In this document: positions 26,801 to 61,854 of the stretch, piece after piece
Position numbering within the stretch: position 1 is the first letter of the stretch
Layout: every line of letters starts with the position of its first letter
Source: Branchiostoma floridae
Lineage: Eukaryota; Chordata; Leptocardii; Amphioxiformes; Branchiostomatidae
Assembly (NCBI RefSeq): GCF_000003815.2
Contig: NC_049989.1
Coordinates: 1,787,644-1,851,643, forward strand
Length of the DNA: 64,000 nt
Reading direction: 5' to 3'
The notes under the pieces: model-generated
What the model saw: the letters and a program-made list of their open reading frames with translations, nothing else
Told to the model about the DNA's origin: nothing
The model's database searches: none
Translations under genes and position numbers: made by a program

Positions 26801-29800
26801 CGCAGAGGGACCACAGTCGTGTCGAAACTCCTTGTGGTCACCTCTGCTGTCTGTTGCACTCAGATCAGTTACTGACCGCCCTGATTATGAATATTAATGA
26901 GCTTACCCTTATATGGGCAGTCAGCCGTTGGGGATCAAGCGTAGGAGGATGGAGCTATGTAAGATGTAACATGATTGGCTGATAGCTTCCCAGCGGCCTT
27001 TTGCGAGATGGCTTTTGTAAACAGAAAGCCCAAGAAAGGCCTATTCTCTGATTGGCTGACAGCTAGTAGTTTGTTGCGACGCTCACAGTAACTGCTGGTG
27101 GGCCACCAGACAGCAGGGCTCCATTAGGCAGTTAGCTAGCCATTGGGACCGTGCGTAGGAGGATGGGGGAGTAGATGATGTTTAATACCAATGATTTTAC
27201 AACAAATTTTCCTTTTCCTCTGACAGCCCAGTTCCAGGCTCAGCAGAGGCAACAGTTCCAGGGCCAGACTCGTGCACAGCTTGTACAACAACAGATACAG
27301 CAGCGACTACAACAACAGCAGCAGTTACAACAGCAGCAACAGCAACAACAACAACAACAACAGCAGCAACAACAACAGCAACAACAACAACAAAATCTGA
27401 TGCAACAGCAGTTACAGCAGCAGCAGTTACAACAACAACAACAACAGCAGCAGCTACAACAACAACAACTACAGCAGGTGAGTTGTAAGGAATAAAGGAT
27501 ACAAGAGAATTCTTTTATACAACCAGTTAATACTCACTTTTGCTTACGTTTTAATGTCTGTTAGACACCTTCCTCAGAGCTTCTAACTGGGGTTCTGCTT
27601 CGGGCCACCATGTTAAGCCAATGTAGGTGGCGCTTTTGTGGCGAGAACACACTCAGTTCTGTTACAAAGTTCTTTCCTACACCCAAAATTTTGACAACAG
27701 TTACTAAAGAAATGCTGCTCACCTCGGTTCTAGCAAAAGCAACTACAGAAACAGAAACAGCAGCAGTTAGTTACAACAACAACAACAAAATTTTAGTTTC
27801 TGCCACTTAGGGCACATCTGTAAGCTGACTCAGTTCTTTTGCAAAGTTCGTTTCTACACCCAAGATGTTAACTAAAAAGACACCGCTCACTTCAGTTACA
27901 GCAGAAGCAACTCCAGCAACAGAAACAGCAGCAGTTACAACAACAGCAACAACAGCAGCAGCAGCAACAACAACAACAGCAACAACAGCAACAGTCACAA
28001 CAACAGCAGATGATGAAACAGAGACCAGCTCTACAGAGACAGCAGAACATAGGAGGGCTGCTGTCTCCCAGTCAGCAGCTACAAGGCCAGAGTCCCGGCT
28101 CTGTTCAGGTAAGGGTAGACCTATTGCAAGGAAAGGTATCTTGGGTAGTCTGTGTAACACAAACTCTCCGTACTCCCTGTAAAGCTGTATCTGGCCTCAC
28201 CGTGCTAGGATGCCAGCAGATGTTGGGCGGGCTGCTATAAGCGAGATTTAGTCAGGCTATATCTGGGGTGTTTCAGCTCCATTTCAATAGCCTTTGGGCC
28301 ACACAACTTTGTGTAATTACTGTAACAGGTGGCCAGTCAGTTGGTAATGACATGTGTTCAACAACCATACACTTTCCCAAATGCTGAGTGCTGAGCAGAG
28401 AAAGCAGCATGTACCATCATTAAAGCCTTTGATATGACTCAGCTGGGAATCAAACTCGCCACTTGGCCATTTCACAGGTAATGCAATGTACAGTAGGTAG
28501 ACAAAACCTGCAATAACTGCCATCTCCGACAGGTGGCGTCCCCTGCCTAGAGCAGTGCCATGCAGCTGCCGGTGGCCTCCTCCATGCAGACTAGCTCTTT
28601 AGTATGACTCAGTTGGGGATCAAACTAGCTCACTTGGTCATTACACTAGTTACAGATACAAAATGTACTAGACAAAACCTGCAATAACTGCCATCTCCAA
28701 CAGGTGGCATCCCCTGCCCAGAGCAGTGCCATGCAGCGGCCAGTGGCCTCCTCCATGCAAACTAGCTCTTTAATATGACTCAGTTGGGGATCAAAATCAA
28801 ACTAGCTCACTTGGTCATTACACTAGTTATAGATAAAACCATTAGTTATACACAAAACCTGCAATAATTGCCATTTCCAACAGGTGGCATCCCCTGCCCA
28901 GAGCAGTGCCATGCAGCGGCCGGTGGCCTCCCCCGCGCAGACGAGCTCCATGCAGAGGCAAGTGGCGTCTCCAGCCCAGACCACCACCATGCACAGACAG
29001 GTGGCGTCACCTGCGCAGACCGGCTCCATCCAGAGACAGGTGGCCTCACCTGCGCAGCCTGGCTCCATGCAGAGGCAAGTAGCATCTCCCGCTCAGCCCG
29101 GGTCGGTCCAGAGACAGCACACGCCACAGTCAGGGTAAGTACTGGTAAAGTGAATTCATTTACCTTTGAAGGTTTATTTTGCTGGTGGCTGGGGTTTGGG
29201 ACTGAACACTGATTTAAATTTTAGTTGCCAAACTACTGAAACGGATAAAATTCGATGGAAGCCTGTGTGATACCTGGTCCAGAACACCCGTATCGAACGT
29301 TATCGCTGCCCAGGTATGACACAATGCCCGGTATCGAAACCGTGACTTCTCAATGTTGTGTGTTCACAAGCCTAGCCACTCGGCCATTTGATGCCTCTGA
29401 AAAAGATGTTGACACCTCCACTCCATCTTTTGACGTTTTTGGTTTGACCTTTGAACTGTAAATCAAGGAGGTTTTATCTGATGAAAGCTTATTGGTGAAA
29501 TGGACACTGATTTTGTTTTGACGCCTCGGTTTTCATGTGATCTACTGTATGTTGTCCACCGGTGTCTTAACTTTGACTGAATGTAACACGTTTTGTCTTG
29601 CATGTATGATGGGCCCCCTTGGAAACCAACTTTCAAAAGTTGTAGGGGCCACCCACCTGTTTTGAGATTAATAGATAAATAAATAAAGACAAGCACAAAT
29701 GTTCTGCTCCATCTCTGCAGTTCTCAGTCCGCGGCTTCCCCAGCGACCATGCTGCCCAGCCCGTCCCCCCAGCCAAGCATGGCCCCCTCCCCGGCCAGCG

Positions 29801-32800
29801 CAACTGCTCGCACTCCTGCTGGGGTCCAGTCTCCTGTTTCACTCAATACACCTGGTGAGTATATCTAGACCTTCACCTGCTGGATAACATTTTGTGTTTC
29901 CTTATACTGTTGGGGGTCCAGTCTCCTGTCTCGCTCAATACACCTGGTGAGTATATCTAGATCCTCAGCTGCTGGCTAGCATTATTCTACTTACATTCAT
30001 ACCTGTCCTGTAATGTTTGCTGATAGACCAACATTTTTTTTTCTTTTGAAACAGAAGCTTTCTTTAAAGTATCGCCCAAATTTACTCTTCAGGTCTGAAA
30101 AATGTGCATAAATCTGTACTTTTCGTTAAATTCATTTCAGTTACGATTTGAAGAATATTTAGTGAATACCTTCTCATGGAGTGGCAATGGATGTATGATT
30201 CAGCTTCTTTAAGAGATAACATTTGAATTTACGCTACTGTAGGAGACGTGTAACTGATAAAACACTTGCGCTAGGTAACCCTGGATCTGTGGGAATGGCG
30301 GCTAGTCTGTCTAGGTTTCTTTGGAATATTTTGAAAAATCTAGTTTTCAGAGCTGAAAGATATGTGCCTAGATCAATTTTAGTGCCAAACTCCTCATAGT
30401 GTGATTTGAAAAATTGAATAATTCATCTTACTAATATGTATACCTAGTCCACTGAGTGTTGAAGATCTGTGACTTATGTGAGATTTGCCAAAAGCAGTTA
30501 CTCAAGCAACTGGATATGACTTTGACCAGTGACACTTAGGAAGAGCAGGTTTCATACCCTACCTATGCAAGGAGACGAAGACAATTTTGATAGCCCAATG
30601 GTAACCAAAAGTAAGACAAAGTCACGACAAGTATTAACGTAACTTATGAGAGACACTTGTGTTTAAGGTAAGACAATAATATTATTTTGATAGTCCAATA
30701 GGAACCAATAGTAAGCCATGTCAAGACAAGTATCAACATAACTTATGAGAGACACTTGTGTTTAAGGTAAGACAATAATATTATTTTGAGAGTCCAATAG
30801 GAATCAAAAGTAAGACAAAGTCACGACAAGTATCAATGTAACTTATGAGAGACACTTGTGTTTAAGGTAACCCCGGATCTGTGGGGATGGCGGCCAGCCC
30901 TCGCAACCCGACTGAGGAGCAGGCATACCTTGAGAAGTGGAAGCAGCTGTCCAAGTACATCGACCCGCTGCAGAGGATGATCAAGAGAGTCAGCAACACT
31001 GACGGTGAGAATATCGTTGAAGAGGTTCATCAGTCACGTATGGATACAGTTATAACAATTTTCTTCAATCTATGACTGTTTTGTAAAGGTACAGTACATA
31101 CCTCCCAAATGTTCGATGTCTACCAGCACATCTTCGTCAAGGGGGTTCTTTTGCGAGAACTGAGACTAGGTCCCCCCCCCCCCTGTACCTTTATAAAACA
31201 GTCATTGATTGAAGAAAATTGTTATAACTGACGGTGAGAGAAGAACGAGAAACACTCACTCACTCACTATCCGGTTTAGCGTCCGTTGTTCCCTGTCTGC
31301 CAGGGGTTGGACATTTCGGTCTGATTGCTGCCCTCCATCTGCCTCTGTAAAGGGGTTTGGCTTTTTTGCATGTGCAGTTTTCTAATATGCTCATTGACAC
31401 CGTCTACCCATCTTCTCTTGGGGTGCCCACACGGGTTCTGGCTGACTACAGACCAGTTCATGACCTTTCTTGGCGAGTTGTCGTGGAAAGTGAAAGGGAA
31501 AAGTAAGAGTGATCCCGTTAAGCTCACTGAAGAGCTTATCTTCCACTGACAGTGACAGAGAAGACAGGCGCTATGTATATTTTTCACAGGTTTATTGTAA
31601 TGGGGAAATTCCCTAAGCTCTTTTATTCTATGTACAGTTTTCACAGGTTCTTTGTACTGGGGAAATTCCCCCAAGCTCTTTCCAACACTTAGCACAAAAA
31701 ACAGCGGACCAGAGATTAACAACCTGCAACCCTTTCCAGTAGCATATATGTCAAGGCGACACAGCAAGGATTTCAAATCCTATTACTATGATGTAATCCC
31801 AATACTATATAAGGAGTGCAGTGACACATAACCTGACTGTCCAGTCTTTGGAAACATCCGCACCGCCGAGAAGTGTGGTTTAGGTCGGTCCCAGAGTTAG
31901 AACAGGGGGGTATAATAGAGAGTATGGGATCTTCTTGGGGATGGAAGTAAGTTTATTTTTGTTCCCCCCTCCCCCCCCAGTCAGCTTTAGGAAGCTGATT
32001 TGCAGGGATTGGCCTTACCACGCAACTCCGGCACTTTCCCCATAACTCATTAAGGATGATCCAATGATTGCGCAGTGTGAATGGTATTCTTCTTTATCCA
32101 GAGGCACTAAAGTGGAACAGCCGGCTCAAGAGAAAACTACTACCTTCAGTCCTTCTTGTTCTAATGTCTTATTGCTCTGCCCTTCTTTAGAAAATCCCCA
32201 AAGTACTTTTTAAAGCCCCTCTCAGAGCTTGCATTGGTCAGTTCAAACCATGTGACTGTTTAGCTGTAACAGTAAGAGTTGTAAGATTCAAATTCAGATA
32301 AGTTACACCTGTGCTGTCTTCTTGCTTCTTCCCGACAACAGTATTAAAATGCACTCCACTGTCCCTGGGGTGTTACAGGGCTCGAAATTCGCTCTTTGCA
32401 AAATGTGCAATGGTGCACCTAACCTGAAAATTCACAAACACAGACAACTTTTGGCAATAGGCTTATTATTTTTCCTGACACATACAAGTGCCAAAATATG
32501 CTGTATACCATAGTTGTACAGTTTAAGCTTTGTTCCAGCACAAAGAAAGGAACCCACCATAAATTGTCGGTCCAACTCGCTTCACTGACGTTCCGGAAGT
32601 CCGGAAATGACGTCAGCAGCGAATCATTGGTGGTGGGAACATCAGTGAAACGAATCAGACATCTGAAGAAGGTTGATGAGTTTGACCAAAAATTTATGAT
32701 GAGTTCCTTTCTTTGTGTGGAAACAAAGCTTAAACTTTACAACAGTTGGATTCTACGAACACAGATGAGCTTTCATTGGAATGCTGTATGCTAGTGTACC

Positions 32801-35800
32801 TTTCAGTTTGTAACCTAAAACAATATCCAGGTGCATCAGTGTACCCACTGTAAAACATTTGGTGCATATCTTCAATTTTGGGTGCACGAAAGTATATTAT
32901 GTACCCAGTATTTCGAGCCCTGTGTGTTATGATATGTTTACTTGACCTCTTCTTTTCTCAAAACACAGCCAGCACGGATGGACAGGCCCCATCTACAGGT
33001 AAAATATTGCCTCAAATACATCATTCTACTGTGCAAATTCAAAGGCTCTGCGTTAAAGGCTTGAAAAATTGTGCATGGCACAGCCAAGGGTCCAAAGAAT
33101 GGCATTTCTGTAATGATCTAAGAAAAATTAAAGAAGAAAAGCACTGTCTTGTTAAAAAAATCATTTACACTCTATGAAGATTGTACTTTATTTTGGCAAA
33201 ATGCTATATCTCTTGTCTTTGTGCAGACAATTGGTGAATGACATTTATTTGATACTTTCATACTCAAATTTTCCAACATCTTTGTCCAGGAAAACATGTG
33301 GAGAAAGTGTTTTTTTTTATATGACTATTTCAAAACAGCCCAGATATTTGAAAGCTTTATATACAAATAATGTATGGGTTCCCTTTACAATGCATTTTAT
33401 CTCTCAAGTCAAAATGAGGACTTAATCTGTGTCAAATTGTCAGTTTTCTTGCCAGACCTACGATTTGGACAAACTAGCTGGGCCTCGTATAAACTCTAAC
33501 AAAGGAAATCATTCAAAATCGCAAAGATATGTCGGGATGAATGTAAAGATGATGTAGGATGTGAAGGTACAAAGTTTAGCATTCTAATATATATAATGGA
33601 GCAAACACATGTGACACATACTTAGTAATACAGTAAATGGGCACTCAATAGCAGAAGCTTGTATAATCTTCTAAAAGACCACATTCTTATGAATACAAAG
33701 TCACCCAAATTTGTAAAAAAAAATTCATCACAGAACTGTGTAATGCTTTCGAATGGATTATAATGCGGTTACTGAGTCTCCCCCCATACAGACCCACATG
33801 CAGCGCATGTTAAGTATTGGTCCCTTTGGGATAATTGCTGAAGATTTAGGTAAATTTTTGTCTCAAAACGATAGAAAAAGTAAGTTGCTAAGGCAGCAAA
33901 TTGATGACTTACTATTCACACATGCACTACAAACACTTGCCCCTGAACTTGAGTTCCCCTTTAAACTTGACACTCTCCTGTCCAACCATTCTTCTCTCTA
34001 AGTGACCTTCCAGTGACCTCCAGCTCACCTGAGTGGGTTACAACAATGCTGGGTGCTTCAAGGCCAAGAGGCTGAATCTGAAGGTCATTTAATGTCAAGG
34101 TCGAATATGAATGTGGGTCTGTTCTATTTCTACAGAGCACAAGAAGGATCTTAGCAAGATGAAGAACTTGTTAGAAATTCTCACTGACCAAAAGAAAAGG
34201 TAAGATTTTTAAAAAAAATATCTACAGTATGTTTTAAGATTATGGTGTGTTTGATTGGCTGACTGTAAATGTTGCAAATGAAACAAGAAATTGACATTAT
34301 CATGCGTCAATAGAATGTTTGTTAAAGGTTTTTTTTTTTTAATTTCTGTTTTTCTACCGGCATTCTTTATTGAATGTTAATTTTTTTATGATTCTAGTAG
34401 TGCATGTATTGTTGTGAGAGTATCTCTGATCATGATATGTTTAAAATGATAGTATGCATTTTCCCAATGGCTTGTGCCTTTGGGTAAAGGCACTAAACGT
34501 GACTTTCCTCACTCTACCCAGGTGTAAAAATGGGTCTAGACTTGGGGAGGTAAAAGGCAATGACGGAGAGGGTTGGTTCTGCCTCCCTATACCGTGCCCT
34601 AAACATACAATATAGTGGACAACACCCACTGTCCCAAGGTCATCAAAAAGACCATGGGACTACATTTACCTTTTAACATGTTTCTGTTTGTTATTGATCT
34701 GTTTACACACACAGGGCTCAAAATACTGGGTGCATGTGCACCCAGGTGCACCCAAAATTGGAACTGTGCACCCAATTTTTTTCAGTGGGTGCACAGGGTG
34801 CACCCAAATATTTTCTTAGGTTTATGTATGGAAAGATATCAAGTATACTGGTATACTAGTATACATCACATTCTTGACATCTAAGTGTTAGAAAGATGAT
34901 AAAAATGTCTGTCACGTTACTTGTTTAAGAATATGATAGCTTGCTACTAAGTTTTGTCATTAGTTTTTTTTTTACATTATTCTTAAATTTAAGTGGTCCA
35001 CCCAAAATTTGTTTGGTGCACCCAATTTTTTAAGCTGGGTGCACCAGTGCACCTAATCCCAAAAAATAATTTCGAGCCCTGACACAACACTCCCAACCTT
35101 CTGAAATTATGCTTACCCCGATTGTGTACTACCGGTTTGGCAATGGGTTAGGGTTTGTTTAGTGTAAACCAACTTATCCTGTAGTCCTCACATGACACTT
35201 CATCATGCCACTAATACACTAGACATGGAAATGTGTGTGATGCAAGAACATGCAAAAAACTTGTAGCCTAGAAGGGTAGAATTCATGAATTTGTGTGAAA
35301 ACATTTTTGTGAATGACAGAAAATAGTTTTTGTTGTTGTTGTGGTGGTGGTGGTAATGGTTCTCCTTTTTAAATACAGACAGCACTGACTACAGTATGTA
35401 ACATTCTAGCCTGACTAAATCAGGCTTTTAGCAGCCCTTCCACTTGTCAAGAGGGGCCGAATCAGCCCCTAGCAGCAAGTGATTGACAACTAATATTTTA
35501 TCAGCCATAGATTTTGAAATGATTGCTGAGGCAAATGTGAATTTTTAAAAAAATCTTTACTACATTTCTAATTTTTAGCGACGCCTGATGGGCGAGCTTA
35601 ATAGTATAGTGTGGAACCGTTTCGAAAGTATTCTAAAAACTGTACAGGAATGTCAGGAATGTCAAAAGTCCGCGCGTGCGTAGTTGCATCATGCCGGACG
35701 GTACCATTACCTCCACGGGTAAGCTTTCCAGTCGCAGGACACATACCGCGGTACCGATATACGTGTGCACAGCAGTGTTTTCCGTATTCGCGCAAGGCGA

Positions 35801-38800
35801 TTTTTGATTGATAGCCGTGCAAAATTGAGAAAAGCCTAGGACTTCAGACGTACCCGAATTGTAGTATGTAGTATGGTGGTCATGGAAATGTAAATATTTG
35901 AAATAGGGGGTAAAAGATTGTTGAAATATGTTTCTCGAAAAATGACCTGTGAGTCGTGGAAATCACTTCCGGGTTCGTTCGTGGTTTATGTGTCCAGGAG
36001 TTTGGAAAGTTTGGTGGCCTTCTTCACCCTTAATATCTTTGCTTCAAAAATACAAACTGATGTGTGAAACAGGCATTGTTTGAGCTTAAAACATGTGGGG
36101 GTTGTGAGATAGCGATGTGATAGTTACCTTCGCCAAGAAAGTTATATTTTGGCTAGCGTTTGTAGGTGTGTGCCGGTTGTAGAAGACCACCATAGCTTAA
36201 GAACGCCTGGATGGATTGTATTGATATTCGGTATGTGGGTAGGTCTTGTTGAGACCTGGAAACGATAAGATTTTTGGCTTCCTATTGGCCTGCTACGGTA
36301 CTGCAGCAGAACTTCCTGGTTTGATACCTCGAGTTCTGGACATGCTGCGGCTATGAATCTTAAGTGGTTGACAGCTCTTGATGCTGTAAGTAAGTGGTAT
36401 AGGTTTGGGCCCCCTAGCGGCTTATTTTGGAACTGCAGGACATGTGACTTATGTGTCAGACTATTAAAGGGAATAGCCAAAGGGGTTGACGGATTGTTAT
36501 GGTTTTTGATATGTGGATAGGTTACGTGATGGTTAATATAATTGCATATTAATTATGAAGAATTATGCAGAGTGGAAGCTTATTTGCATAATAAATTGGG
36601 AAATTGTCTAAACATGCTCAGCTCAATTAAAGGACCATTACAACATGTGACCTTTGTAACTGAGAAAGAGAAGAATATTGATAGATAAATACCTTATTTG
36701 CATAATTAATGAGAAAATGCTAACATATATTGCGCATGTCTGTTTGTTGGAGATGATCAAGTTATATAGTTTATGCAAATGAGGGCCTTATTTGCATAAT
36801 TCATGACAAACACAATTAATTCAGTAGAAAAATATTTTTATCTATCTATATATCTATATGATATTGATACTGGCCGAAACCCTTTTTTTAGCATATTGTT
36901 ATTTAGCTAGAGTAAAATGAGGCCCTGATTTGTAAAATCGAAGCATTTACATTAGTTCACCCTTCACTCACAAGGGACCCCCTTTGACAGCAATGCTCTA
37001 TGAACATCCATCGCCAGACGAATGGAATACGACTATTAAAACCCATTAACAACAACAATCTATAAAACTTATAAACATTAAAACCGTCGCTATGGCAATA
37101 ATTTTAATTGCCACACTTTTTGTTGTTGCTTTTTACAGACTTCAGTACCAAACATTGCTGAAATGTGAGCAAGTACTCGAGAAGCTGGAGCTGCAAATGA
37201 AAATGGTAACTTTCTTTTATTTCCTTATTTATCTACAAGGCACCTACATGGCTATTATGCAACACTAGCTTTGCTTTAGAATTGCATGATAGAAAAGTGA
37301 AATCTCCGTACATACACTTAGAACTGTCATACCTAAAAGAATTACAACAGGAAGTAATAGAACTGCTGTCTGATTACTTTTTAAAAAATCTCAATCAGCC
37401 CTTTACATGCTATGAGGTTTAAAAATGTTCTTGAAATAGTTGAACTGTAATTTCCAACACAAAAATTGGACTCACCCAAATTTTCGAATGCACAGCATAA
37501 GTCTTTGTCAAGGAATGAACAATCCACTGCTGTTCACTGCCGAGTCCAATTTTTGTGTTGGAAATTACAGTTCAACTGTTTCAAGAATGACTTCTACCAA
37601 CACAGATGAACTTTCAAGTTAAGGTTTACAAATGGGTTGGCTCACTTCAGTTGGGGAGGTAAAAGGTGGAGGAAGGAGAGGGTTGGGCTCAGCATTCTAA
37701 TACCTCACCAAGACACAGTGGGCAGTTAACAACCCTCTACCTCTACAGACTTATATGTGTCTTGTCATCTGACAATGTCTATCAGCCGTCACGTGACAAC
37801 GAAACTCCAAGATGAGATCTACCGGGTTGATAAAGGGACCCGGTGCGTCTTGAAAACTTCCCAAGCTATGAACTGTAGTTGTATGTATATGTTGTATACA
37901 TTTCTGTCAAAAGACTTATATGATTAACCTTTACTTTTTGTTTACAGAGCCATACCACAAGTACAACCACCACCACAACAACGACCACCCCTGCTCAACT
38001 GCCCAAGTCCCAGCAGCACATGTGCCAACCCCTGCTTGACGCGGTAGCCAGCCAACTCGGATCCCCCATGCTAAACCACACCCTCAAGAGGACGTTTGGA
38101 CCAGCACTGACAGCGCTGCATGGGCCACCTATCTGGTAAGGACCCAATAAGTACAGGTAACATTGGGAGAGCAGGATCATTTTGAAAACTTGGAATGGTG
38201 TGAAAAAAAATCCCTGAATCCCCATACCACACCCTGAAGAGGACGTTTGGACCAGCACTTACGGCGCTGCATGGGCCACCTATCTGGTAAGGACCCAAAA
38301 AAATACAGGTAAAATCATAATAGTAGGGAAAGATCATTTTGAAAACTTGAAATGGAATGAAAAAAGATCCCTGAATCCCCATACCACACCCTGAAGAGAA
38401 CGTTTGGACCGGCACTTACTGCGCTGCATGGGCCACCTATCTGGTAAGGACCCCATAAGTACAGGTAGCATTGGAAGGGAAGGATCACTTTGAAAACTTG
38501 AAATGGGGTGAAAAAAATCCCTCAATCCCCATAAAGTTAAATTTAAAGTTGCCCATACATCTGTAACAGATGCTTAGGGGTGGCGTCCATCTCCATTTCT
38601 GTAGCCCTTAGGCCACACATTTGTGCAAGCCACTACAGCAGGGGACTAGTCCACTGGTATGTGTGTTTAACTCCCATACTCAATACTGCTAGTGAAAGTA
38701 TTGAGGCAGCGGTCACTACGGAGGATGGTACGTAGGCTATAACCCTAATGCTTATCCATCTTGTTGTCCATCCCTGCAGTTTTCCAGGCCCCCCACCCAA

Positions 38801-41800
38801 GCGGCAGAGAATCATTCCCCGCCAGGAGTGCAGCATCCCCAACATCCTCCAGGGGGAGGTCGCCAAGCTGGACCAGAAGTTCAAGGTCAGCCTGGACCCC
38901 ACCCAGAACAACATCAGCACCTCCGTCCATCTCGTCTGCAGACTGGGTGAGAACCACTTTTCTACATGTTTGTAAGGGTTGGGGCTAGGGTTAGGGTTAG
39001 GGTTGGGTTAGGTTTGGGGTTAGGACTGGGTTAGGGTTAGGGCTGGGCTTAGGGTTAGGGTAAGGGTTAGGGCTAGGGTTGGGTCTGGGGTTGGGGTTAG
39101 GGTTATGGTTATGGTTGGGTTTGGGGTTAGGGCTAGGGTTAGGGACCCCACCCAGAACAACATCAGCATCTTCGTCCACCTTGTCTGTAGACTGGGTGAG
39201 AACACCCTGTTTTTGTTTGTGTGTGTTTGGCTAGTATAACTCAAGAACCTCTGGATGGATTTGTTATTTTGGGTATGTGTGTGGATATTGGGAAAATGTC
39301 TAGGTCTAGGTCAATCTGGGGCCTTCTACATTCCCTGTAGGCCAGATGGACAAGAAATGAAATTTGGTGTAAAACATATTTGTTTCTTTGTTTGCTTGAA
39401 CCATTATTTATTCATGAGAAGCTCAAATCAGCCTGCAGGCCACTTTTTACTGAGGTTATGAGGGAAGTACATGACTTGTAAGAGTCAGATAAAATATAAC
39501 AGAGGTACAAATTACATAGAGTCATAATAAATCTATCAACATATATCACTACATGTACATGGTACAAAACATTAACAGAGCAAATGCTCAGCGTCCATAG
39601 TCCATGTGCATTCATTTTGGTCATTTCTTTTATTTCAAGAGTCTCTTAAAGACCTCTTAAAGGTCAGATTTGGGGCTGTACGTGTGTCTGGCGGTATGTT
39701 ACTCCAGACATTGGGTAGGCTGTTGGTCATCTGAAGGTCTCTCATTTTGGGACAACCAGCTGACTATTCTTGTATCATTTCCTCCCCCTCCCCCCAGACG
39801 ACAGGTCCCTTCCCAGTGTGCCTCCCATCTTCGTGGTCGTGCCTGAGCAGTACCCAGAAGAAAGCCCACAATGCACAGCAGAGTCACATGATTATGGTAA
39901 GTCTTTCCATGGATAGGCGGAAGTGAATGCTGAAGTTCTTTGTAACACCCATGACTATTTTCATCAGTACACAATCAGAGAGTGAATATCTAGCCAACAT
40001 TTTGGTGACCATCCATATTTTGTTCCAAAGATTTTCAAAGGAGCATGAAAAGAAAAACACAGAACTAACTTAAGCAACATGTACTGCAGTTTCTGTAACC
40101 CAAGTTGTCTCTAGTTGTTAAGTTTAAGCTTTGTTCCAACACAAAGAAAGGAACTCTTATATTTTCGGTCAAAATCATCGACCTTCTTCAGATGTCTTAT
40201 TCGCTTCACTGATGTTCCGGAAGTCGGAAGATGACGTCAGCAGCGAATCGTAGATGGTAGGAAGACAGAACCTGCCACCACCACAGTTCAGAGAGGGTGG
40301 ATGCACCCTTATGTCATTCTCCTACGCAGAGGAACCACAGTCGTGTCAAAACGCCTTGTGTTTACCTCTGCTATCTTGTGCACTCAGACCAGTTAGGGAC
40401 CGCCCTACTTATATATATTAATGAGCTTGCCCTTATATGAAATTGTATTACACCGTTTCCAATTGGACATCTGAAATTGTCTTCATTCATAGTTAGAGTA
40501 TAAAAAACCTGTTTCTTCCAGATCACTTCAGTGTCACTGACGAAAACTGGTGGATTCCAGTTGAAACGTCTGACCGTCTCCAAAATCATATCCAGTTGCA
40601 TAAGTAACAGTTGCTTTTTGGCATAGCTGAATTGTGTTTTTTTTACAGTCAGCATTTCCCAACTTGACAGAGTTTTTCAAAAAGAATTGAGCGACAAGAT
40701 AACATCTAATTGTTTACAATAATTGATTTGTTATTACACAAACAAATGTTCACTACTGTACACAAATTACCCGTCCTGGTTCAGGAGTACGTTAATGTGC
40801 TGTTAGCAAAACCGGAAATGAGAGAATTTGTCCTTGTTTCTTGGTGTTCTTCAAACTTTATGAAGGGATGCGTGGTGTCGCTTATTGTCCGCTGCAGCTC
40901 ACAGAGAGAGGCTTCATGTTGCCGGGGGTGCAGCGTGGGGAGTGGCATTCTCCTACGCAGAGGGACCACAGTCGTGTCGAAACTCCTTGTGGTCACCTCT
41001 GCTGTCTGTTGCACTCAGATCAGTTACTGACCGCCCTGATTATGAATATTAATGAGCTTACCCTTATATGGGCAGTCAGCCGTTGGGGATCGGGCGTAGG
41101 AGGATGGAGCCATGTAATACGTAACATGATTGGCTGATAGCTTCCCAGCGGCCTTTGCGAGACAGCTTGCGACAACAAAAAGCCCAAGAAAAGCCTATTC
41201 TCTGATTGGTTGAAAGCTGGTTTGTGGCGACAATCATAATAACCATTGATAGGGCATGAGATAGCAGGGCCCAATAGGCTAATGCCATAGGGGACCGGGT
41301 GTTAGGAGAATGCCTTATGTATATGGTGTTTAAGCTTTGCATTGGAACAAAACATTAAACTTTACAGCTATGGGTTCTACCAACACAGATAAGCTTTCAT
41401 TCCAAGTTGTCTCTGTCTCCAGACTCGACATCATTTCTACAGACGGTGAAGAAGTCTCTGGATCTGAGGTTGCTAAAACTGCCCGACCAACATTCACTCA
41501 CACAGCTGTTAGGGGCATGGGTGAGTTATACATCATACTGTAAAATACTTAACGGTGTTTTTGTTAAAAAGGAAAGGAAAAAGGAAAATGATATTGATCC
41601 AGTTTCAGCTCATTGGTGGTGACAGAGAGGTAGCGTGTTTGTGAGCGACACAGCCGGACTCGAACTCACAGCTTCTAGTTCCAGAGGCATGGCCACTAAC
41701 CACTGGACTATGCACGCTACCTTATTTTATTGTTGAAACAATTTTGTAGTACAATATATTGCAAACACATATTTGCGTGTAATCAATATGCGACAGAGAG

Positions 41801-44250: not shown

Positions 44251-44299
44251 CTCACTCTTTGTGTGCAGTATGAAAACAATGCGCATGATGGCGCTGCTG

Positions 44300-45267: not shown

Positions 45268-45269
45268 TG

Positions 45270-49166: not shown

Positions 49167-50093
49167 CACCCCCACCTAACTCCTTCTGCTTTTCCCCCTA
49201 CCCGTTCTCCTTTTCCCCCGGACTTCTCCTTAACCCCCGCTGTACTTCTGCTGTGCCCCCGTCCTTCTTCTTGGCCCCCGGTGTACTTCTGCTTGCCCCC
49301 CGCCCTTCTGCTTAACCCCCAATGGCCGCCGTCAACCCGAATTTCACGTAGTCGACACGAAAATCGTTCAGAAAGCAACAAAAACGGTCGCGCCACGGAA
49401 CATGAAATAGCCTATTCTCAATGACACATTCTGGGCCACCTTTCTGCAAAGTGGCGTTTCACAACTCCTTCCCAGCGGTTTGGAGAGAGCGAGCGGTAAC
49501 AGCTATCGCCAGAATTGCGCAATAGTCCATATAGCCACTCGAGCCGTCCATGATCCAAGCCGCTTCTCACCCGAATTTGCAGAAGTGTTCTCGAGATTTA
49601 GCGCGATTTGTACGACGCCACTTGGTAGAGAGGTGGCAAAGATTGTTTGCCAGACCATAGGCTATATGAGACCGTGTATCGTTGCCGTGCAGGGTGTTTA
49701 GGCACGACTTTCGTGTGAGTACCCGATGCTGACGGGGCGGATGCATACGCCCTTCACCGAGAGGGCGAGCCTTTGAAGTAAAGACTGGGAAGGAATTGTG
49801 AAACGCCACTTGGCAGAAAGGTGGCCCAAAATTTGTCATTGATAATAGGCTATTTCATGTTCCGTGGCGCGACCGTTTTTGTTGCTTTCTGAACGATTTT
49901 CGTGTCGACTACGTGAAATTCGGGTTGACGGCGGCCATTGGGGGTTAAGCAGAAGGGCGGGGGGCAAGCAGAAGTACACCGGGGGCCAAGAAGAAGGACG
50001 GGGGCACAGCAGAAGTACAGCGGGGGTTAAGGAGAAGTCCGGGGGAAAAGGAGAACGGGTAGGGGGAAAAGCAGAAGGAGTTAGGTGGGGGTG
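49167..50093. mobile_element. 927-bp element with 309-bp near-identical terminal inverted repeats
   Basis: Arms 49167-49475 and 49785-50093 start CACCCCCACCTAACTCC and are identical over at least 230 bp. Five-base duplication CCGTT at 49162-49166 and 50094-50098. The outer part of each arm is an array of CTTCTGCTTAACCCCC-like motifs. No ORF spans the 309-bp centre. Superfamily unclear; a 5-bp duplication with CAC ends allows Transib. Confidence 0.88.
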
Positions 50094-50099
50094 CCGTTT

Positions 50100-51880: not shown

Positions 51881-51894
51881 AGGTGATTACGTCA

Positions 51895-52267: not shown

Positions 52268-52302
<35 letters not shown>

Positions 52303-52370: not shown

Positions 52371-52587
52371 GAGTATTTATTTGAAAATATCAATGTCGGA
52401 CTCTGAAAGGGAGTGAATCTCTGCTTTTTCATGGAATAAAAATGGTGTTCTTTCATATCGAATCATTGTCTTCACTTCATTCCTCGCGAATGACGATCGT
52501 CCTAAAGCCAACAACTTCTTCAGATGTAGAGACAAAACGTATAGCTCATAGAGATGCACTGTAAAAACGCACGAGAGTACTATTACT

Positions 52588-52742
52588 GTAATCTCCAAGT
52601 CGAGATCTTGCGTGGCATAAGATACATACTAGTAATAGTAGTATCATAAGCCGGCAGAGGAGTTAACTCCTTTGCCGGCTAAACTCGCTTTCCCCAGCTT
52701 CTGATAATATCTTATGCCACGCAAGATCTGCTTGGAGATTAC
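52588..52742. repeat. 155-bp inverted repeat upstream of ESS2
   Basis: GTAATCTCCAAG...CTTGCGTGGCATAAGATA pairs with TATCTTATGCCACGCAAG...CTTGGAGATTAC. A second palindrome sits inside: GCCGGCAGAGGAGTTAACTC then CTTTGCCGGC. Possible MITE. Confidence 0.75.
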
Positions 52743-53085
52743 TATAATGTCTATTACTGATCCCTTTAATACTTATATTTAATACTCACACCAAGTGCGT
52801 TTGCATTGTTCAATGTAATTGCAGACCGTACCACGGCGACATCTGTCAACTTTGGATAGTAACTGCAGTGCTGATTTGCTTTGCATACAACTTGTCTTTT
52901 CAGTTTGGAAACAAATTTGGAAACAAACATAATCCTATTGTCACTGTTAGCATTAGAAGTTATAGAAACCGTCGTTGTGCCATATAAAGAGGGGGATATT
53001 AATATCTCCGGATTTCATTGACGGATTTCACTCATTTAAAGTTTCACCGTGATGCAGGGTCTCACTTGTCACAGTAAAGGCCACA

Positions 53086-53093
53086 TGACGTCA
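53086..53093. promoter_or_regulatory. Palindromic CRE (TGACGTCA) upstream of ESS2
   Basis: A full palindromic CREB/ATF site 191 bp before the ESS2 start codon, in sequence without repeats. Functional role is inferred. Confidence 0.5.
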
Positions 53094-53127
53094 CATACGT
53101 TCCCTAACCTTTGACCTAACTCATCTT

Positions 53128-53136
53128 ACTTCCGGT
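53128..53136. promoter_or_regulatory. ETS/GABP site (ACTTCCGGT) upstream of ESS2
   Basis: A consensus ETS-family site 148 bp before the ESS2 ATG. CRE plus ETS is a common pair in promoters of housekeeping genes. Confidence 0.45.
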
Positions 53137-53283
53137 TGCGTTGTTGTGACGATTTGTCTTGGAACGATGCAGTTTTTTGTCGTGTAACTCGTGATATTTA
53201 CGACTTTGAAAATCATAATAGCACCAGAACTAAGGAGAGTTATTGAATTGAGCAAGAGAGTGAACAGAGGTGAACTGTAAGCC

Positions 53284-53400
53284 ATGGCGCTCGTGAAAAA
53301 GGACGAGAAATCCATGGCTGTTTCTACCACAGACGGTGGGGAGGGGGGCAAAGCAAAGAAGCCTCCTAAGAAAGTATTGGACGAGGACACCTATGTGCAG
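53284..53400 (+). CDS. ESS2: ESS2 exon 1 (start codon)
   Basis: ATG in gccATGgcg, a good initiation context. Encodes a Lys-rich N-terminus ending KKVLDEDTYVQ, then GTAAGT. The conserved LDEDTYV is where family alignment begins. Confidence 0.92.
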
Positions 53401-56400
53401 GTAAGTTGTACATTGAAGACTCATAGATTCTTCCAGACATCTGGGATTTGTCACTTTTTTGCAACCAAATATTAAAGTAGGAGTGTGGGTTTGTAGGAGA
53501 AATTGAGAGGACGATAAAGTAATTAGAGCTTGGTAGAACTGTAGAACTGTATGAAGGGTAGATGTTCTTCCCTGGTCTTTGGGAATACTGCTAAGATGAG
53601 AGTTCATCACAGAGAGTGTAACGTAAGAAGTACGGATGGACAATAAGAATTTACACTTCTGGACGCTTCCGATTTCTTTATTGAACGTGCAAACAGTTCA
53701 AATGTCTCATCTGCAAACAGATGCTAACGTCGCATTGAAGGGTTGATCACGCTCATAGTTTCAGCCATCAAATAGCCATCATCTTAGGAATGGCAGTCTA
53801 CCAACTGATGGATCAGTCTTAGAAATACAATAATTCACCTGTTTTTACAGAACTCTAAGCAATAGACATGTAACGAAGCATGGTTTTATAGACAAGATTT
53901 GTTCACAAGTTATGGGCCTTCACCTCTGACCTCTTGCACTGTATTATTGTCAATGATATAATTATACAAAAATTGGACTGCATCAAACAAGTTCTTCTTC
54001 ATCTTCCTCAGGACCTTGAGACGATCATCCAGCGAGACTTCTTCCCGGACTTGACAAAGCTGAAGGCTCAGCAGGAATACCTGGAGGCTGTGGAGACCAA
54101 CGATCACCAGAAGATGAGGGAGTTGGCCATCAAGTACGGGTCCACCCGTCTCACAACCAGGCTGCGCACAGAAACACCAGGGGCATGTAAGCAATCATTT
54201 ATTCCTTTATTCAATTTACCACATTTGTGGAAGGATTGACCAACGATCACCAGAAGATGAGGGAGTTAGCCATCAAGTACGGGTCCACCCGTCTCACAAC
54301 CAGGCTGCGCACAGAAACACCAGGGGCATGTAAGCAATCATTTATTCCTTTATTCAATTTACCACATTTGTGGAAGGATTGACCAACGATCACCAGAAGA
54401 TGAGGGAGTTAGCCATCAAGTATGGGTCCACACGACTCACTACCAGGCTGCACACAGAAACACCAGGGGCATGTAAGCAATCATTTATTCCTTTATTCAA
54501 TTTACCACATTTGTGGAAGGATTGACCAACGATCACCAGAAGATGAGGGAGTTAGCCATCAAGTACGGGTCCACACGACTCACAACCAGGCTGCACACAG
54601 AAACACCAGGGGCATGTAAGGATAAGGAATTGTTTCATACATGCATTTTTTTTAACGAGATTGTTCAGAGCAAGCTCTTTAGACCACTTCAATGAAATAA
54701 AGGAAGAAGTTGGAAATAATTGTACATGGAGGTAGCGGTGGACATTTGTTTTGAAGGCTGATACATGTAACTTGTCGTCAAGAGAAGTCCACAAATTGGC
54801 TGTCCGGGGAAAGAAACTTACTGTACAAGGACTTGGAAATGCCCTCTTGCCCTTTTGTAATAGAGAAATGAAAGGCCTCTTTGTTGGGTTTGAATATGTA
54901 CTTGCAATCTATCATATTGAAAGACTGTGTACTTCAGCTTCTATTGACTGTAGATGATTGGAAGATGGATTGCAGGCTGAAATGTTTGTTTCTAGGCAAG
55001 GCCTGTCTCCAGCTTTTAAGTTTCTTTTCATCCTACTCATTGTTTGGGAGCCAACATTGTTGATTTTTTTTAATCTGTTGTTATAAGCTTATAAGAACAG
55101 GCACAGGTAGATGCAAGACCAATATGGCAAAGTGGGGTCTCAGCCCAGATAGACAGAGTGCCTGTGACCGGGACAAGAGCAGCTTCTTGTCTGCCCCTTC
55201 CCTTCCATGCACCAGGGAAGATCTGGAAGCTTTGACCCCCAGAGGAAGGGAGTGTGTGGAGTACTGGATCAGAAAATTGTAGTGATAACACGACGAAGAA
55301 GAAGCTTATAAGAATACATCTTCATCAGTTTTTCTGTCACCAAGCTCTGATTTTTGGTACAGATGTGGTGGAATATTTTTCTGTCCCAACAAGTAAATTT
55401 CCGTCCCGGGACGGAGGGACGGGTCCTGTAGACAGCGCTGACATAAGCGCTTGGTCAGGACAAATTTGGTGTACTGGGTATATTATATACTTTAGGTCAA
55501 AGGCGTTTTATGCTATAGAACTTTGGAAAGTCTGAAAGATTAAAGACAGTTACCATTAATATGTTGTGTTTTTTTTTAAATTTTTTTATTGGGTTTTCAA
55601 ATAAACAAAAACAAAGAAAAGTTGGGGAACCATCCAACAAAATGACAGCAGGAATAACAAAAATGATTTCAATATAACCATGACAATAATGAACTTAGAT
55701 TAAAAAATGATATAACTGAGATCTCAAACCATAACAATAATGAATTTAGATTTAAAAAAATAATATGAGATCCTTAACCATAACAGTAATGAACTTAGAT
55801 TCAAAAGTAATATAACAGTAATATGTTGTGTTTATTTCATGTCCACAGATACACCAGCTACGTTTGAGACACCGGACGTGGACAGCTCCAGAGGACGGGA
55901 CTCCCCGACGTCTCACCGCTCAGCTGTCAATCACAGCCAGCAGGAGGGCGACGGGCCTCCAGAGAAGAAAGGTACAATAATGTCATTTGCTATCAATATT
56001 CTATTGATGTTAGCTACGGCCGTGTGGCGCGTTGATACACCCAATCCCCTCAATCTCGGAAGTTAAGCAACGTGCAGTACGGTCAGTACTTAGTACTTGG
56101 ATGGGAGACCACCCAAGGATGGCTGGATGCTGTAGCCAGGCCAAGAATTCACGAATTTGTTTTTCAGAGGGGATGTAAATTCAGAAGGGATGTAAAACGG
56201 GGGTCCTGTGTTCAAGCTGGTGCCTCGATCACGTAAATCAGCCTCATAACTCAAAGACATAAGGTACCTACTGGCTGTAAATATGCCGGATATACATGTA
56301 TTTATATATTTATAAAACACAGGAAAAATATAGATATTTCAGCAGCGTCAAATTTTATTTGTATAGTTCAGGGGCCCACTGAGGTCAATCACTGAACTGT

Positions 56401-59400
56401 GCAATCCTGGATAAAAAAATTACAGAAAATAGATAATATGAAAATAAAGCCCGGAAAGGCAAAAATTTCAGAATATAGGAGGATGCCTTTGCTAGTTCTG
56501 TTTTTTTCCCGATAAGAGTTGTTATAGTTTTGTACTTCAAGTTCAAGGGAAAGTTACAGCCCTCCACCCCCCGCATGGTTTTACAAATGGTATTCAGCCA
56601 AATTTCACATAAACTCTAGTCTGTATCATATTCTAATCTTGATAACAGATATTCTGTGGAAATGGGTAAAGCCAAGGCCAGGTTTGTACTACATGAAACA
56701 TTCGCATTGGTTTTATTTTTGCAGTTTTCATTTTGACCTTTCAACTGTGACTTCATGACACTGTAAACATGCATTTACAATGTACACTATTACTACTCAG
56801 TACTGTACTACAGAATCATTTCAACTGCGAACTTAAGACACAGCAAAAAACACCTTTCCCCTTTTGCTGTGAAAATATGTGCAAGTCCCAGCAAAAATAG
56901 CATCTTCTGGTATGTTAGTAGAGTAGGTACAGTAAAGTTTTTATTAGTTATTATGAAGTTTTGTTCATCAATCCTTTTTATAGATTTTTTTTACCTGTAG
57001 TCGAACACAAGAATTCACCTACAGTCCTACTGTATGAATTGTCTTCTTGCGGTATCTGACATTATATGGCTATGAGCTGGGAGTTAAGTGCTAAGCCTTG
57101 GGCCACACTTGCTCCGAAACAGGTCATCCCTTTTGGGTACTGTGTGTTGAGAGATAAGGATCTTGTGCTGTGATTGCTCCATAAGTCTTGTGACAACCAG
57201 CTACTAGTAGTATGCTTACTGTAAATCTTTGAATGTTTCGTTCGTTCGTTCTTTCGTCCCATAGCCTTTTAATCAGCCATAGGCTGATTAAACAGCCGTA
57301 GGGGCAGCACAACATGTTGTGCTGTGCTGTATCAATGGGCATTTTAGTCCCCTGGCGACGCCTATCTCCTCTCCGGGGCATGGTGAATGATGTAAATCAC
57401 CGTGAATGTTTGTCATGCTTTTATTTTTGTTGGGACCTCTCCATTTACAAATCGCAACTCCTCAAATATTGAATTTTCTCCTAAATCCATTGTTTAAACC
57501 ATGAAAACTTCCTTTTCTCTACTTTATTAAGTCTTTGCAAAAATGAAAATAAGTGAATCTACGGTGACTAGTACTGCGTCTCTAGTGTCCTTCAGCAGAA
57601 TTCTCCCTGTCTTTAATCTTGCTGCTTTGCAGGGAGTCTCCGTGAGATCCTGAGTTATCTCTTCATTTCCTCCGGGGCTGCAAAGCACTAAATCACCTCT
57701 CCTTGGTCCCTTCATGCACTCAAGGAAACATGTAGTACCTCAGTGTCTATCAACAAGTTCTTCCCTCATGGCAGAAATGAAGAATTGTGCTGTCTCTCGG
57801 TGGAATAGATTTCAGGATGTTAGCTCACACACTGCGTAATACAACATGGATCAAGAGGCTGAAACATTCTACAGTTCTCTACAGAGTCAAATGTTGCTGA
57901 CAGCATCCGGTATCTTTCATCAGTGACTGGTGATTATAACGATCATCAGCGACATTCTCAGTGTCAGTAATGAAAGGTAGAGGATGCTGTCTTAGACATC
58001 GGGCTGTTTTGAGAATATATCTAGTTGCTTGATTTATTTGGTATTACTATTAGTATTAGTATTAGTATTACATAACATTCTTCCTGGATGTCTATCCTTC
58101 ATCAACACTCGTAAGTTGATGTGTGAGTTGTTTTGTCAGTAATGAAAGGTAGAGGATGCTGTCTTAGGCATCGGGCTGTTTTGAGAATATATCTAGTTGC
58201 TTGATTTATTTGGTATTAGTATTAGTATTACATTGTACATAATATTCTTCCTGGATGTCTATCCTTCATCAACACTCGTAAGTTGATGTGTGAGTTGTTT
58301 TGTCAGTAATGAAAAGTAGAGGATGCTGTCTTAGGCATCGGGCTGTTTTGAGAATATATCTAGCTGCTTGATTTACGTTTGTACTTGGTGTTATGCAACA
58401 TTCTTTCTGGATGTCTATCCTTCATTGTCACTCTAAGTTGATGTGTGTATTTTTTTTCCTTCTCAGTTAACCTGGTTATGCAGAAATGTCTAAGATATGA
58501 CTGAGACCAAATTTATATATTAGCACAACAAAGCAAGGCATTCTACCTCAGTACTTGGATGTTCAGTCTTCATTGACGCTCAAAGTTGATGTGATGTGTG
58601 TTTCTTTTTTCATTTTCACTGTACTTGGTTGAGCAAAAATGTCTAAGACAAACTAAATGTTCAATATTTCTACAGCAAAACAAGACATAGACCTACCCTT
58701 GGGCAAGTACCTTGCTAAGAACACTAGTGTCTTAGACATCTGGCTCTTTTGAGAATATATCTAGCTGCTTGATTTATTTGGTTTTACATAACATTTTTCC
58801 TGGATGTCTATCCTTCATATTAAGTTGTTTTGTTTTTTCACTTTACCTGGTTGTGCAAAAATGTCTGAGACTGACCAAAGTTTTTAATATTTCTACAGCA
58901 AAACAAGACATAGACCTACCCTTGGACAAGTACCTGGATGTCTAATCTTCGTTAACACTCTAAGTTGACATGCTTTTTTTTTCTTTCCACTTCAAATGCT
59001 TGTGCAGAAACGTCAGAGACTAATCAAATCTATGTAATTCTACAGCGAAACAAGACACAGACCTACCCTTGGACAAGTACCTCGCTAAGAACACCAGTTT
59101 CTTAGACTGGTTTTACATAGACATTTTTGCACAACCAGGTAAAGTGAAAAAAAAAAAAACACAACTAAATATGAAGGATAGACATCAGGAAAAATGTTGA
59201 GACTGACCAAAGTTTTTAATATTCCTACAGCCAAACAAGACATAGACCTACCCTTGGACAAGTACCTGGATGTCTAATCTTCGTGAACACTCCAAGTTGA
59301 CATGCTTTTTTTTTCTTTCCACTTCAAATGCTTGTGCAGAAACGTCTGAGACTAATCAAGTCTATGTAATTCTACAGCGAAACAAGACACAGACCTACCC

Positions 59401-61854
59401 TTGGACAAGTACCTGGATGAACACTCTAAGTTGACATGCTTTTTTTCTTTCCACTTCAAATGCTTGTGCAGATACGTCCGAGACTAATCAAATCTATGTA
59501 ATTCTACAGCGAAACAAGACACAGACCTACCCTTGGACAAGTACCTTGCCAAGAACACCAGTGAAGACAACGCGTCCTTCGGCACCATCATGGAAGTGAC
59601 AGAAGAAAAGAACAGGCAGAAACATGCGTGGCTCTACGACGCCGAGAAGGAGCACTCAGAAAAACAGAAGGAGATCCTACAGCTGAAGGGTCCTGAGCAG
59701 CTGGCGATAGAGGGCTCCACTTCAAGTGTGGACACGTGGAGTTATAAAGCCAAGAACGCACTAATGTACTACCCTGAAGGTAAGTTAGATTCCACTGGTA
59801 GATTGGGGAATGCAAAAGAGGAGTTAGGAGGAATGCATCGTCTTTTTACTGAGCAGTGCCTGTTGTCAACTGCTTGCGACCGTTTCCCAACAGGCACCAA
59901 AGTGTCACCTGAAAAGTTTAAAAATTGCAATTGACAAAATTGGTTCCCCTTCAAGTGTGGACACCTTAGTTATGATATAAAGGAGTTATAATATAAAGCA
60001 AAGATCACACAAATGTACTACCCTGAAGGTAAGTTAGATTCCACTGGTAGATTGGGGAATGCAAAAGAGGAATGAGGCAGGATAAGAAAGAGAGAGAATG
60101 ATTTATTGCAATGTCTTTTGGATATCTCACTGGGCTGCACCTTGTTTGCGACTGTTAGACAACAGGTGCCAATTTGTCGCCTGAAAATTAGAAGAAAAAA
60201 TCACAATTGGTAAAATGTTGCAGATGCTATTTTTTCTTGTATACTTTATAGGTGGTAACAGTCAATGCAGCTAATAACAAATTATGCACCTACACCATAG
60301 GACATTTATGTATAAAACCCAAAACATGGACCAGTGCAGGTTAGGTGCAGGTAGACACCAGAAATACCTGCACAGCTGCAATTTTACCTGCACTAACCTG
60401 CATATACAGGTGGTATCTTGAGCCCTGTGGATACAAACTACCCGACAACAGGTGTAATCACTGCAAGTCTCTTGATGAATGATGGAATGATATGACATCA
60501 TGGGTGCTGTCATTTTGTTTGTAGAGTTCGCATACTGTAAATGTATTTAAGTTCGCGGGGATTTAATTTCTCGTTAGCGGGAAAAAGGACTTTTCGCGTT
60601 GGTTTTAATTTCGCGGTAGCACCATGCACTGTAGTCTCTTACTGCCATGGAAAAATGTTCGCGGTGGTTTTAAATTCGCGGTAAAGCGGCCACCGCGAAA
60701 ACCGCGAACATTAATCCACCGCAAAAGTTTCTGCATTTACGTGAGTGAGATATGGGCTTTAGTATTTTATGTGAAGTCTGACGTATACTCTTGTGAGGGA
60801 AATATGACTTTGACAAACCTCCAAACATTCATAGATGGACCACTCTTGTCACAACTGATTGTTTTTTCTCTTCTGTAGGAATGTTTTAGTATTCTGTACA
60901 AAGTCTGACTTTGTCAAAGTCAAGCATAATTTCAATTCATTTCGTAGTTCAAGGACAGTTTCTGGTGATATAAATTTGCCTTTGCAGGCACCCACATCCA
61001 GTCACAAGCCACATCAAAGCAATTCTGTCCATTTTTCCTCAGTACAGCATTTTCTCTTACGCACCCCGATTAGAATATGCACCCCTGATTTGGGGCAAGT
61101 CTCAGACAGATCAGTGGGACCGAAATGGAAAATGGAAAAACTCAAATAAAGTATGCACCCTTCTCCACCAATTTTGAACAAACCTTGAACTGAAAATTGA
61201 ATTCAAATGTTTTCCCCAGGTTATTTTGCATAAATCCCCACTGTAATTGTCTCTTTAAACTTGTTAATTGCCTGCTGCAACTTATAAAAATCACTCAGAA
61301 TAAACTGGTAGAACAAATCAGCTAGTACATCTAACTGACCTCAAACAACTTATGCACTCCAACTTTGGCAACAACTTGTAGCACCTTTTCAATTTTGAAA
61401 AGTTTTAAAAGTGTGTACTGTATTATTTAAGAAAATAGGGTATTATTAACCATTTTTCATCATTCCTTTGAGTTGTTGCTGAATCAGTTATTTCAGTTTG
61501 ATGCCTTTTTACAAAATGTGTTTGATTATAATGTTACAGGTACCGAGTCAGCAGAGGATGTGTTCAAGAAGCCGCGAGAAATCCTCCACAAGAACACGAG
61601 ACTTGTGAGAACCCCATTCGACTCGGACGTGGCCAGGTCGAGACTGCAGCAAGTAGCCGGAGTCAACGCACAGATCAAGAAAGGGAAAATAGGGCATGAT
61701 GGGAAGGAAATTCTGCCGGAGGACACACCCAAGGTCAACGGCTTTGGTTTTGTGGCGACACCGTCACCTGCACCTGGTACGACACAATGAGTGTTTGATA
61801 GTTTTTATTACCTTTGTGAAGAAGGTTATGTTTTTTGTACCGTTTGTGTATGTA

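Follow-up and report, generated by a model that had tools for sequence, protein, structure and literature searches.

In a stretch of 64,000 nucleotides from the lancelet Branchiostoma floridae (C11:1787644-1851643, in an assembly of 513.4 Mb and 431 contigs; hereafter referred to as the window), several exon edges of the neighbouring genes MED15 and ESS2 are crossed by tandem arrays, whose units repeat the end of an exon together with its splice site inside the adjoining intron. The intronic copies, which we term ghosts, differ from the working exon and from each other predominantly at silent sites. This signature of selection is real at the level tested and it recurs in arrays outside the window. 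We consider it probable that it originates from unequal exchange, by which units would be cycled through the working position and purged there of replacement changes by selection.

The exon edges were fixed by protein joins. Eight exons of ESS2, seven of them located in the window (53284-53400, 54012-54186, 55849-55971, 59510-59779, 61540-61776, 62251-62351 and 63492-63607) and the eighth outside of it, join into one complete frame of 493 amino acids, which defines the edges independently. This protein aligns end to end with lancelet ESS2 (93% in B. lanceolatum, 91% in a record of B. floridae x B. belcheri), with the remaining listed matches showing about 47-54% identity, which identifies the DNA as that of a cephalochordate genome. 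The exon joins in MED15 agree with the B. belcheri MED15 protein (97% over the searched part). The exons of this gene bounding the arrays, which extend overall from 27902 to 41520, include exons b (27902-28108), c (28884-29134), d (29721-29854), e (30867-31004), g (37948-38135) and h (38780-38946), and the same region contains exons f, i and j and a small exon near 34156. A second B. belcheri MED15 record of 378 residues (P0127) contains unrelated stretches and was not used as evidence. All exons and arrays are located on the forward strand.

Within this frame, we found nine arrays, four at acceptor (A, B, D, H) and five at donor sites (C, E, F, G, I). The initial annotation had named seven of them, all of which are present at or a few bases off the positions it gave, and arrays A (27734/27902) and I (59743/59992), which it had not counted, are added here. 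In the following, differences between units are given as silent to replacement sites. Array A (27651..27954), at the acceptor of MED15 exon b, contains a ghost (27651-27787) with the acceptor TTCTAG preceding 27734 and a functional unit (27828-27954) whose exon part starts at 27902, and it shows a ratio of 2:1 if counted up to a 4-bp insertion. Array B (28427..28948), at the acceptor of exon c, contains two ghosts (28427-28596 and 28597-28767), the distal of which carries a stop codon, and a functional unit (28768-28948, exon from 28884), with a ratio of 4:5. In array C (29821..29983) the donor of exon d is part of a functional unit (29821-29891, exon end 29854) that is followed by a single ghost (29913-29983; 2:0). 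Array D concerns the acceptor of exon e, where a ghost of the exon start is found at 30274..30312, with homology fading past 30307, and where the functional acceptor and the exon start at 30867 (30584..30904) are located at the end of a 99-bp intronic array; its ratio is 4:0 over 33 nucleotides. The units of this intronic array (30584-30870) repeat the acceptor-like end TTTAAG|GTAA that is found at the start of exon e. Array E (38075..38533) contains the donor of exon g in a functional unit (38075-38225, exon end 38135) preceding two ghosts (38226-38382 and 38383-38533; 5:0), and array F (38894..39203) the donor of exon h (38894-38954, exon end 38946) and one ghost (39143-39203; 3:2), which is separated from the exon by a telomere-like array of the (TTAGGG)n type (38975-39144).

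The three arrays of ESS2 are of the same kind. Array G (54095..54620), at the donor of exon 2, consists of a functional unit (54095-54237, exon end 54186) and ghosts starting at 54238, 54381 and 54524, with a ratio of 5:1. Its sole replacement changes Arg to His (at 54166, in the ghosts at 54381 and 54524), which is the residue found in the ESS2 record of B. floridae x belcheri. Two other lancelet ESS2 records have an additional three residues shortly before exon 2 ends, in a region (54174-54186) located inside the portion repeated by the array, and sequences of about 35-50 bp matching the intronic part of its unit (54197-54240) are found at 12 further genomic sites, a part of the unit thus resembling a dispersed repeat. 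Array H (58604..59563), at the acceptor of exon 4, contains five ghosts, with exon parts from 58676, 58899, 59046, 59231 and 59378, and a functional unit at 59439-59563 (exon from 59510; 4:2), whereas array I (59743..60082), at the donor of the same exon, contains a functional unit (59743-59832, exon end 59779) and a decayed ghost (59992-60082; 1:3). The spacing between units is 92 bp in C, about 132-180 bp in A, B, E, G and parts of H, 249 bp in F and I, and 592 bp in D. The splice dinucleotides AG or GT are intact in 24 of 24 ghosts counted in the window and in the globin and myosin arrays described below (12 on the donor and 12 on the acceptor side), a count that excludes the myosin acceptor units since their search pattern contained AG. 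The described clustering in two neighbouring genes is real at this location, where arrays are found at 9 of 30 edges compared to 5 of 80 in a sample of myosin exons (Fisher P 0.002), in a window that was itself chosen for clustering. The 30 edges were counted by hand and comprise those of MED15 exons b to i, without the small exon near 34156, and 14 edges of ESS2, one of them beyond the window.

For the analysis of divergence, variable columns of the exon parts were classified as silent or replacement with reference to the codons of the working exon. Units were trimmed prior to counting at the end of homology in array D, which drops two silent and three replacement sites, at the 4-bp insertion in array A, and after TACCT in the truncated units of array H. 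The six arrays for which a ratio of about 23:5 had been reported (C to H) yield exactly this number upon recounting. With array B, the ratio is 27:10, where about 28:9 had been noted. All nine arrays together contain 30 silent and 14 replacement sites (32:17 untrimmed). If ghosts were neutral, between 10.4 and 14.3 of the 44 sites would be expected to be silent under five mutation models, which range from equal rates to kappa 6 with a five-fold CpG rate and include kappa 2.1 with a ten-fold CpG rate (P 4e-10 to 1e-6, treating sites as independent, as do all P values given here). The expectation of roughly the reverse ratio in copies free of selection, from which the initial annotation had argued, is too simple as the exon also gathers silent changes. 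If silent changes are allowed to accumulate freely in the exon as well, 16.7-21.5 silent sites are predicted under the null (P 4e-5 to 0.008).

These numbers bear on the possibility that ghosts are neutral and that the bias is a consequence of the mutation spectrum, of third-base composition or of silent changes in the exon alone. The exon does add silent changes, and arrays A, B and I, with a combined ratio of 7:9, show no clear bias. However, the bias persists at sites that vary among ghosts, which amount to 13:5 in the window (4.4-5.8 silent sites expected, P 2.5e-5 to 6e-4) and to 41:21 over all arrays analysed in this study (15.9 expected). It is also evident in a control for codon phase that does not rely on a codon table, where 31 of 44 variable sites in exon parts fall into the best phase (null 24.0, P=0.0002), in contrast to 41 of 105 in the intronic parts of the units (null 44.9, P=0.98; arrays A, D and F were omitted as they contain too little intron). 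Finally, CpG mutation is only about two-fold elevated in B. floridae (PMC12862219) and the signal remains in the model with ten-fold elevation. In light of this evidence, we regard a neutral origin of the bias as highly improbable. The pairwise ratio of replacement to silent divergence (dN/dS) in the window is 0.18 between exon and ghosts and 0.21 between ghosts, neither of which is near 1. Replacement divergence is about five times below silent divergence, the latter of which (0.167 exon-ghost and 0.118 ghost-ghost) is of the same order as the divergence of the intronic parts (0.142 and 0.215).

The bias recurs in two other gene families. Globins were selected prior to any counting because equivalent arrays, termed mirages, have been published there, and nine globin exon matches were examined. 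One locus contains a donor array with a spacing of 157 bp, as published for BflGb9, and a second a four-unit acceptor array, as described for BflGb6. Their ratios are 9:3 and 8:2, the latter being based on the sequence preceding a one-base indel of the distal unit; past this indel, three units add one silent and one replacement site that were not included. At another globin locus (L037, 1205-1401) a repeat begins just past the exon end and contains the donor-like TGGTAAGTCC with almost no exon sequence. For myosins, 20 neighbourhoods holding 40 of 142 listed matches to the myosin head were taken blind to the presence of arrays. Three of the 40 matches carry arrays across their edges, at 5 of 80 edges; an additional array beside one myosin exon (L053) was left out of the counts. 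The ratios are 13:9, 10:5, 2:1 and 2:0, with the first two codons of the last array, which are outside the local match, being dropped (2 silent, 3 replacement), and the fifth array shows no differences. Together, the six variable arrays outside the window amount to 44:20, where 16.3 silent sites would be expected, and all 15 variable arrays to 74:34 (27.9 expected), with silent exceeding replacement sites in 13 of 15 and a pooled dN/dS of 0.16 (bootstrap 95% 0.10-0.22). In these totals the share of silent sites was set at 0.27 for two small myosin arrays, sites are treated as independent, and two myosin acceptor arrays (of the exon copies L055 and L057) share ancestry. A frame-free scan for coding-phased repeats, which covered 160 kb distributed over four other chromosomes and 40 kb adjoining the window, detected no clear boundary array and, since it ran without exon annotation, yields no estimate of prevalence.

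Direct evidence for the movement of units is provided by one of the myosin exons, which is present in paralogous copies on C10 (L055, 1-887) and C1 (L057, 1-917), both with arrays at the acceptor and the donor edge. On C10, matches to the acceptor unit run on upstream to about 21154162. Over 209 nucleotides, the functional exons of the two copies show 12 silent differences and not a single replacement, and thus both copies were under constraint. If lineages of units were defined by their position, the two working units would be closest to each other. Instead, in a tree of seven full units and 130 columns, from which two partial units were left out, the working unit of L055 pairs with a ghost of L057 as its sister (support 96/96), and trees that unite the working units of both copies are rejected (p-AU 0.0087). 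Judging from this tree, a unit most likely switched between working and ghost position after the myosin copies had split.

The retention of splice dinucleotides and codon phase in ghosts could also reflect their translation in some transcripts, by use of alternative donors, alternative acceptors or mini-exons, in which case selection would act on them directly. An acceptor-like site is found near the start of four of the eight donor-side ghosts in the window, the best of which, in array I, is fair with 79% pyrimidine. However, read-through from the exon to a ghost donor encounters one to four in-frame stops in all eight donor-side ghosts, whose spacing shifts the frame in five cases, and in all nine acceptor-side ghosts a reading frame extended from the ghost acceptor runs into a stop upstream of the working exon. 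With all 17 window ghosts running into stops, none qualifies as a tandem or mutually exclusive exon that would keep the frame between an acceptor and a donor. Each of the four candidate mini-exons (47, 47, 26 and 73 nucleotides) would shift the frame, as none has a length divisible by three. In the lancelet models compared (two of ESS2 and one of MED15) there is no long insert derived from a ghost, but the two ESS2 models do contain the three additional residues in exon 2 mentioned above. Of the two explanations raised in the initial annotation, translation is thus disfavoured. We consider it unlikely that window ghosts are translated, and direct selection on translated ghosts appears highly improbable as a cause of the bias. 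The exon joins in the protein models, which rely on the splice sites nearest to the exon, support that splicing would employ just the one unit that is contiguous with the remainder of the exon.

The second explanation, an exchange of units with the functional exon, is supported by the six variable arrays outside the window, the sister relationship between a working unit and a ghost in myosin, and by simulation. Ghosts nearest to the exon also tend to be more constrained, with a dN/dS of 0.10 (n=16) compared to 0.17 (n=15) in ghosts farther away, and of 0.06 compared to 0.17 in arrays with several ghosts, a possible gradient among comparisons that depend on one another. A duplication followed by descent in a single lineage cannot generate a silent bias since a ghost would gather neutral changes from birth. 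For the bias to arise, units have to diverge for the most part while constrained as exons, which is provided by exchange of whole units among positions and haplotypes. In our simulations of whole units, dN/dS in the absence of exchange is 0.53 for exon-ghost and 0.93-0.96 for ghost-ghost pairs, and at 2Nc of 15-40 per unit it decreases to 0.16-0.19 and 0.20-0.28, respectively, close to the window values of 0.18 and 0.21. At an effective population size of about 1.7 million reported for B. floridae (PMC12862219), the lower 2Nc figure corresponds by our own arithmetic to about 2e-6 to 4e-6 exchanges per unit per generation. In the process that we envision, a unit would comprise the first or last tens of exon bases, the splice site and some intron, and units would be shifted from ghost to working position and back by conversion or unequal crossing-over, events that would also involve different haplotypes of a very large population. 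Once a unit has reached the working position, replacement changes would be weeded out and silent ones would pass. Ghosts would consequently be former and future exon edges, which have diverged mostly as if constrained as exons, and units leaving the exchange would decay by acquiring a stop, indels or many replacements, as might be the case in arrays A, B and I and in one globin and one myosin unit. We infer the rate, partners and direction of exchange, and likewise which units are used in MED15 and ESS2 and that exchange is ongoing there.

Several observations weigh against recycling by exchange. Explicit models of unequal crossing-over between haplotypes reach only 0.25-0.32 between exon and ghost and 0.43-0.49 between ghosts at the highest rates, and simulated exchange within one chromosome alone does not produce a steady fall of dN/dS. 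The crossing-over models (N=150 and N=200), which stalled at a ghost-ghost value of 0.43, in our view due to a low turnover of the working position, were replaced by the model of whole-unit exchange. The silent divergence between exon and ghosts (0.17-0.23) is four to six times the published silent diversity of 0.0397 (PMC12862219), compared to about two times in the simulation. In array G, three units have identical intronic parts yet differ at silent sites in their exon parts, which would not be expected from whole-unit exchange, and boundary units of a globin array were reported to be excluded from homogenisation (PMC3087553), which speaks against a ready exchange with the working unit. The lack of a clear bias in arrays A, B and I has to be counted here as well. 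The position change in myosin concerns a single gene pair and its signal resides in the intronic part, where the L055 working unit shows 2 differences in 47 positions to the ghost and 10 in 47 to the working unit of L057, while the exon part barely discriminates (5 and 6 in 82, respectively). Finally, a second haplotype of ESS2 was sought in the assembly and a single full copy was found, MED15 not having been searched likewise.

The high divergence also bears on a scenario in which each ghost was captured once, as a divergent allele in a single unequal crossover between haplotypes, with no ongoing recycling. Lancelet alleles differ mostly silently, with a dS of 0.070-0.075 and a dN/dS of 0.067-0.089 in the Chinese lancelet (PMC4284660), and array G contains two allele-like classes of units. 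The change of Arg to His in this array, which was the only ghost replacement in ESS2 and MED15 to match another record in a comparison with lancelet proteins by eye, could represent a captured allele, although it is a single CpG change that may have recurred by chance. However, silent divergence between exon and ghosts in excess of B. floridae diversity by the described factor, the six units of array H and the myosin pair, which would require a later change of position, make capture as the sole event an unlikely scenario. It is very unlikely that the arrays are artefacts of assembly, where two haplotypes were laid in tandem and ghosts are mere alleles. The species is highly heterozygous with silent-biased allelic differences, and a mirage in a globin gene is reported to have been misassembled in a previous draft (PMC3087553). 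In contrast, 73 of the 108 variable sites are located in arrays of at least three units, more than two haplotypes allow, some units contain stops and indels, divergence is above the allelic level, and the same myosin arrays are found on two chromosomes. An artefact retains some plausibility for arrays of just two units, C, F and I among them. Mirages have moreover been reported from two haplotypes, by reverse-transcription PCR and by re-sequencing (PMC3087553, PMC3902484).

Other repeats are found in the window. A near-identical dispersed repeat with several identical translations of open reading frames occurs in two copies in introns of MED15 (26174-26875 and 40371-41030), and a repeat of about 140 bp is present in inverted copies (49182-49320 and 49940-50055) with the same open frames on opposite strands. 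Upstream of the studied MED15 exons, a large satellite (5918-8243) with a unit of 57/114 bp contains about 41 copies of 57 bp.

Collectively, our results describe intronic sequence that is very probably untranslated, yet shows a dN/dS of about 0.16. If recycling by exchange is true, such arrays would offer a natural readout of minisatellite exchange, with the dN/dS of a ghost telling the time that it has been out of work. We tentatively propose, as a possibility that we consider less likely than not, that a lancelet exon edge might be a small population of interchangeable cassettes, with ghosts as a standing store of tested variants that would be swapped in at an evolutionarily relevant rate, thereby raising silent diversity and letting a splice edge be replaced as a whole without harm. 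Silent diversity at exons bearing arrays may reflect the history of the array instead of mutation or selection, and ghost exons can mislead gene prediction.

The proposed process has counterparts in the concerted evolution of tandem repeats and in gene conversion between genes and non-functional copies. As in these systems, exchange would homogenise copies, and selection on one would shape the others; what sets the lancelet arrays apart is that exchange would involve the edge of an exon along with its splice site and that the inactive copies reside in an intron of their own gene. There is also a relation to the model of intron gain by duplication of AG/GT proto-splice sites discussed in PMC3087553, which similarly relies on duplicated exon edges with AG/GT as raw material, but in our case no new intron is seen and the copies stay intronic. 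The closest match is provided by the lancelet mirages, minisatellites spanning exon-intron boundaries that have been described in Adh3, the globins BflGb6 and BflGb9, TnC and PGBD5 (PMC3087553, PMC3902484), and the Adh precedent named in the initial annotation was thus right in kind. The published units have lengths of 10-72 bp in Adh3 and of 150-160 bp in globins (PMC3087553). They share with the arrays of MED15 and ESS2 the tandem organisation across the boundary on either the donor or the acceptor side and the preservation of splice signals in many copies, and for mirages an undisturbed normal splicing and features of concerted evolution among BflGb6 units have been reported. Mirages are further characterised by a number of units that differs between haplotypes and in somatic tissue. 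What differs is the accumulation of nine arrays in two genes of one window, with neither MED15 nor ESS2 being named in the passages on mirages in these two papers, and the silent bias of ghosts and the switch between working and ghost position in copies of a gene, both of which are absent from the same passages. A literature search, which reached few subscription journals, recognised no earlier report of a silent bias in ghosts. The spanning of boundaries as such was already known. The arrays of MED15 and ESS2 belong to the known lancelet mirages, to which our study adds a signature of selection that has apparently been unreported before.

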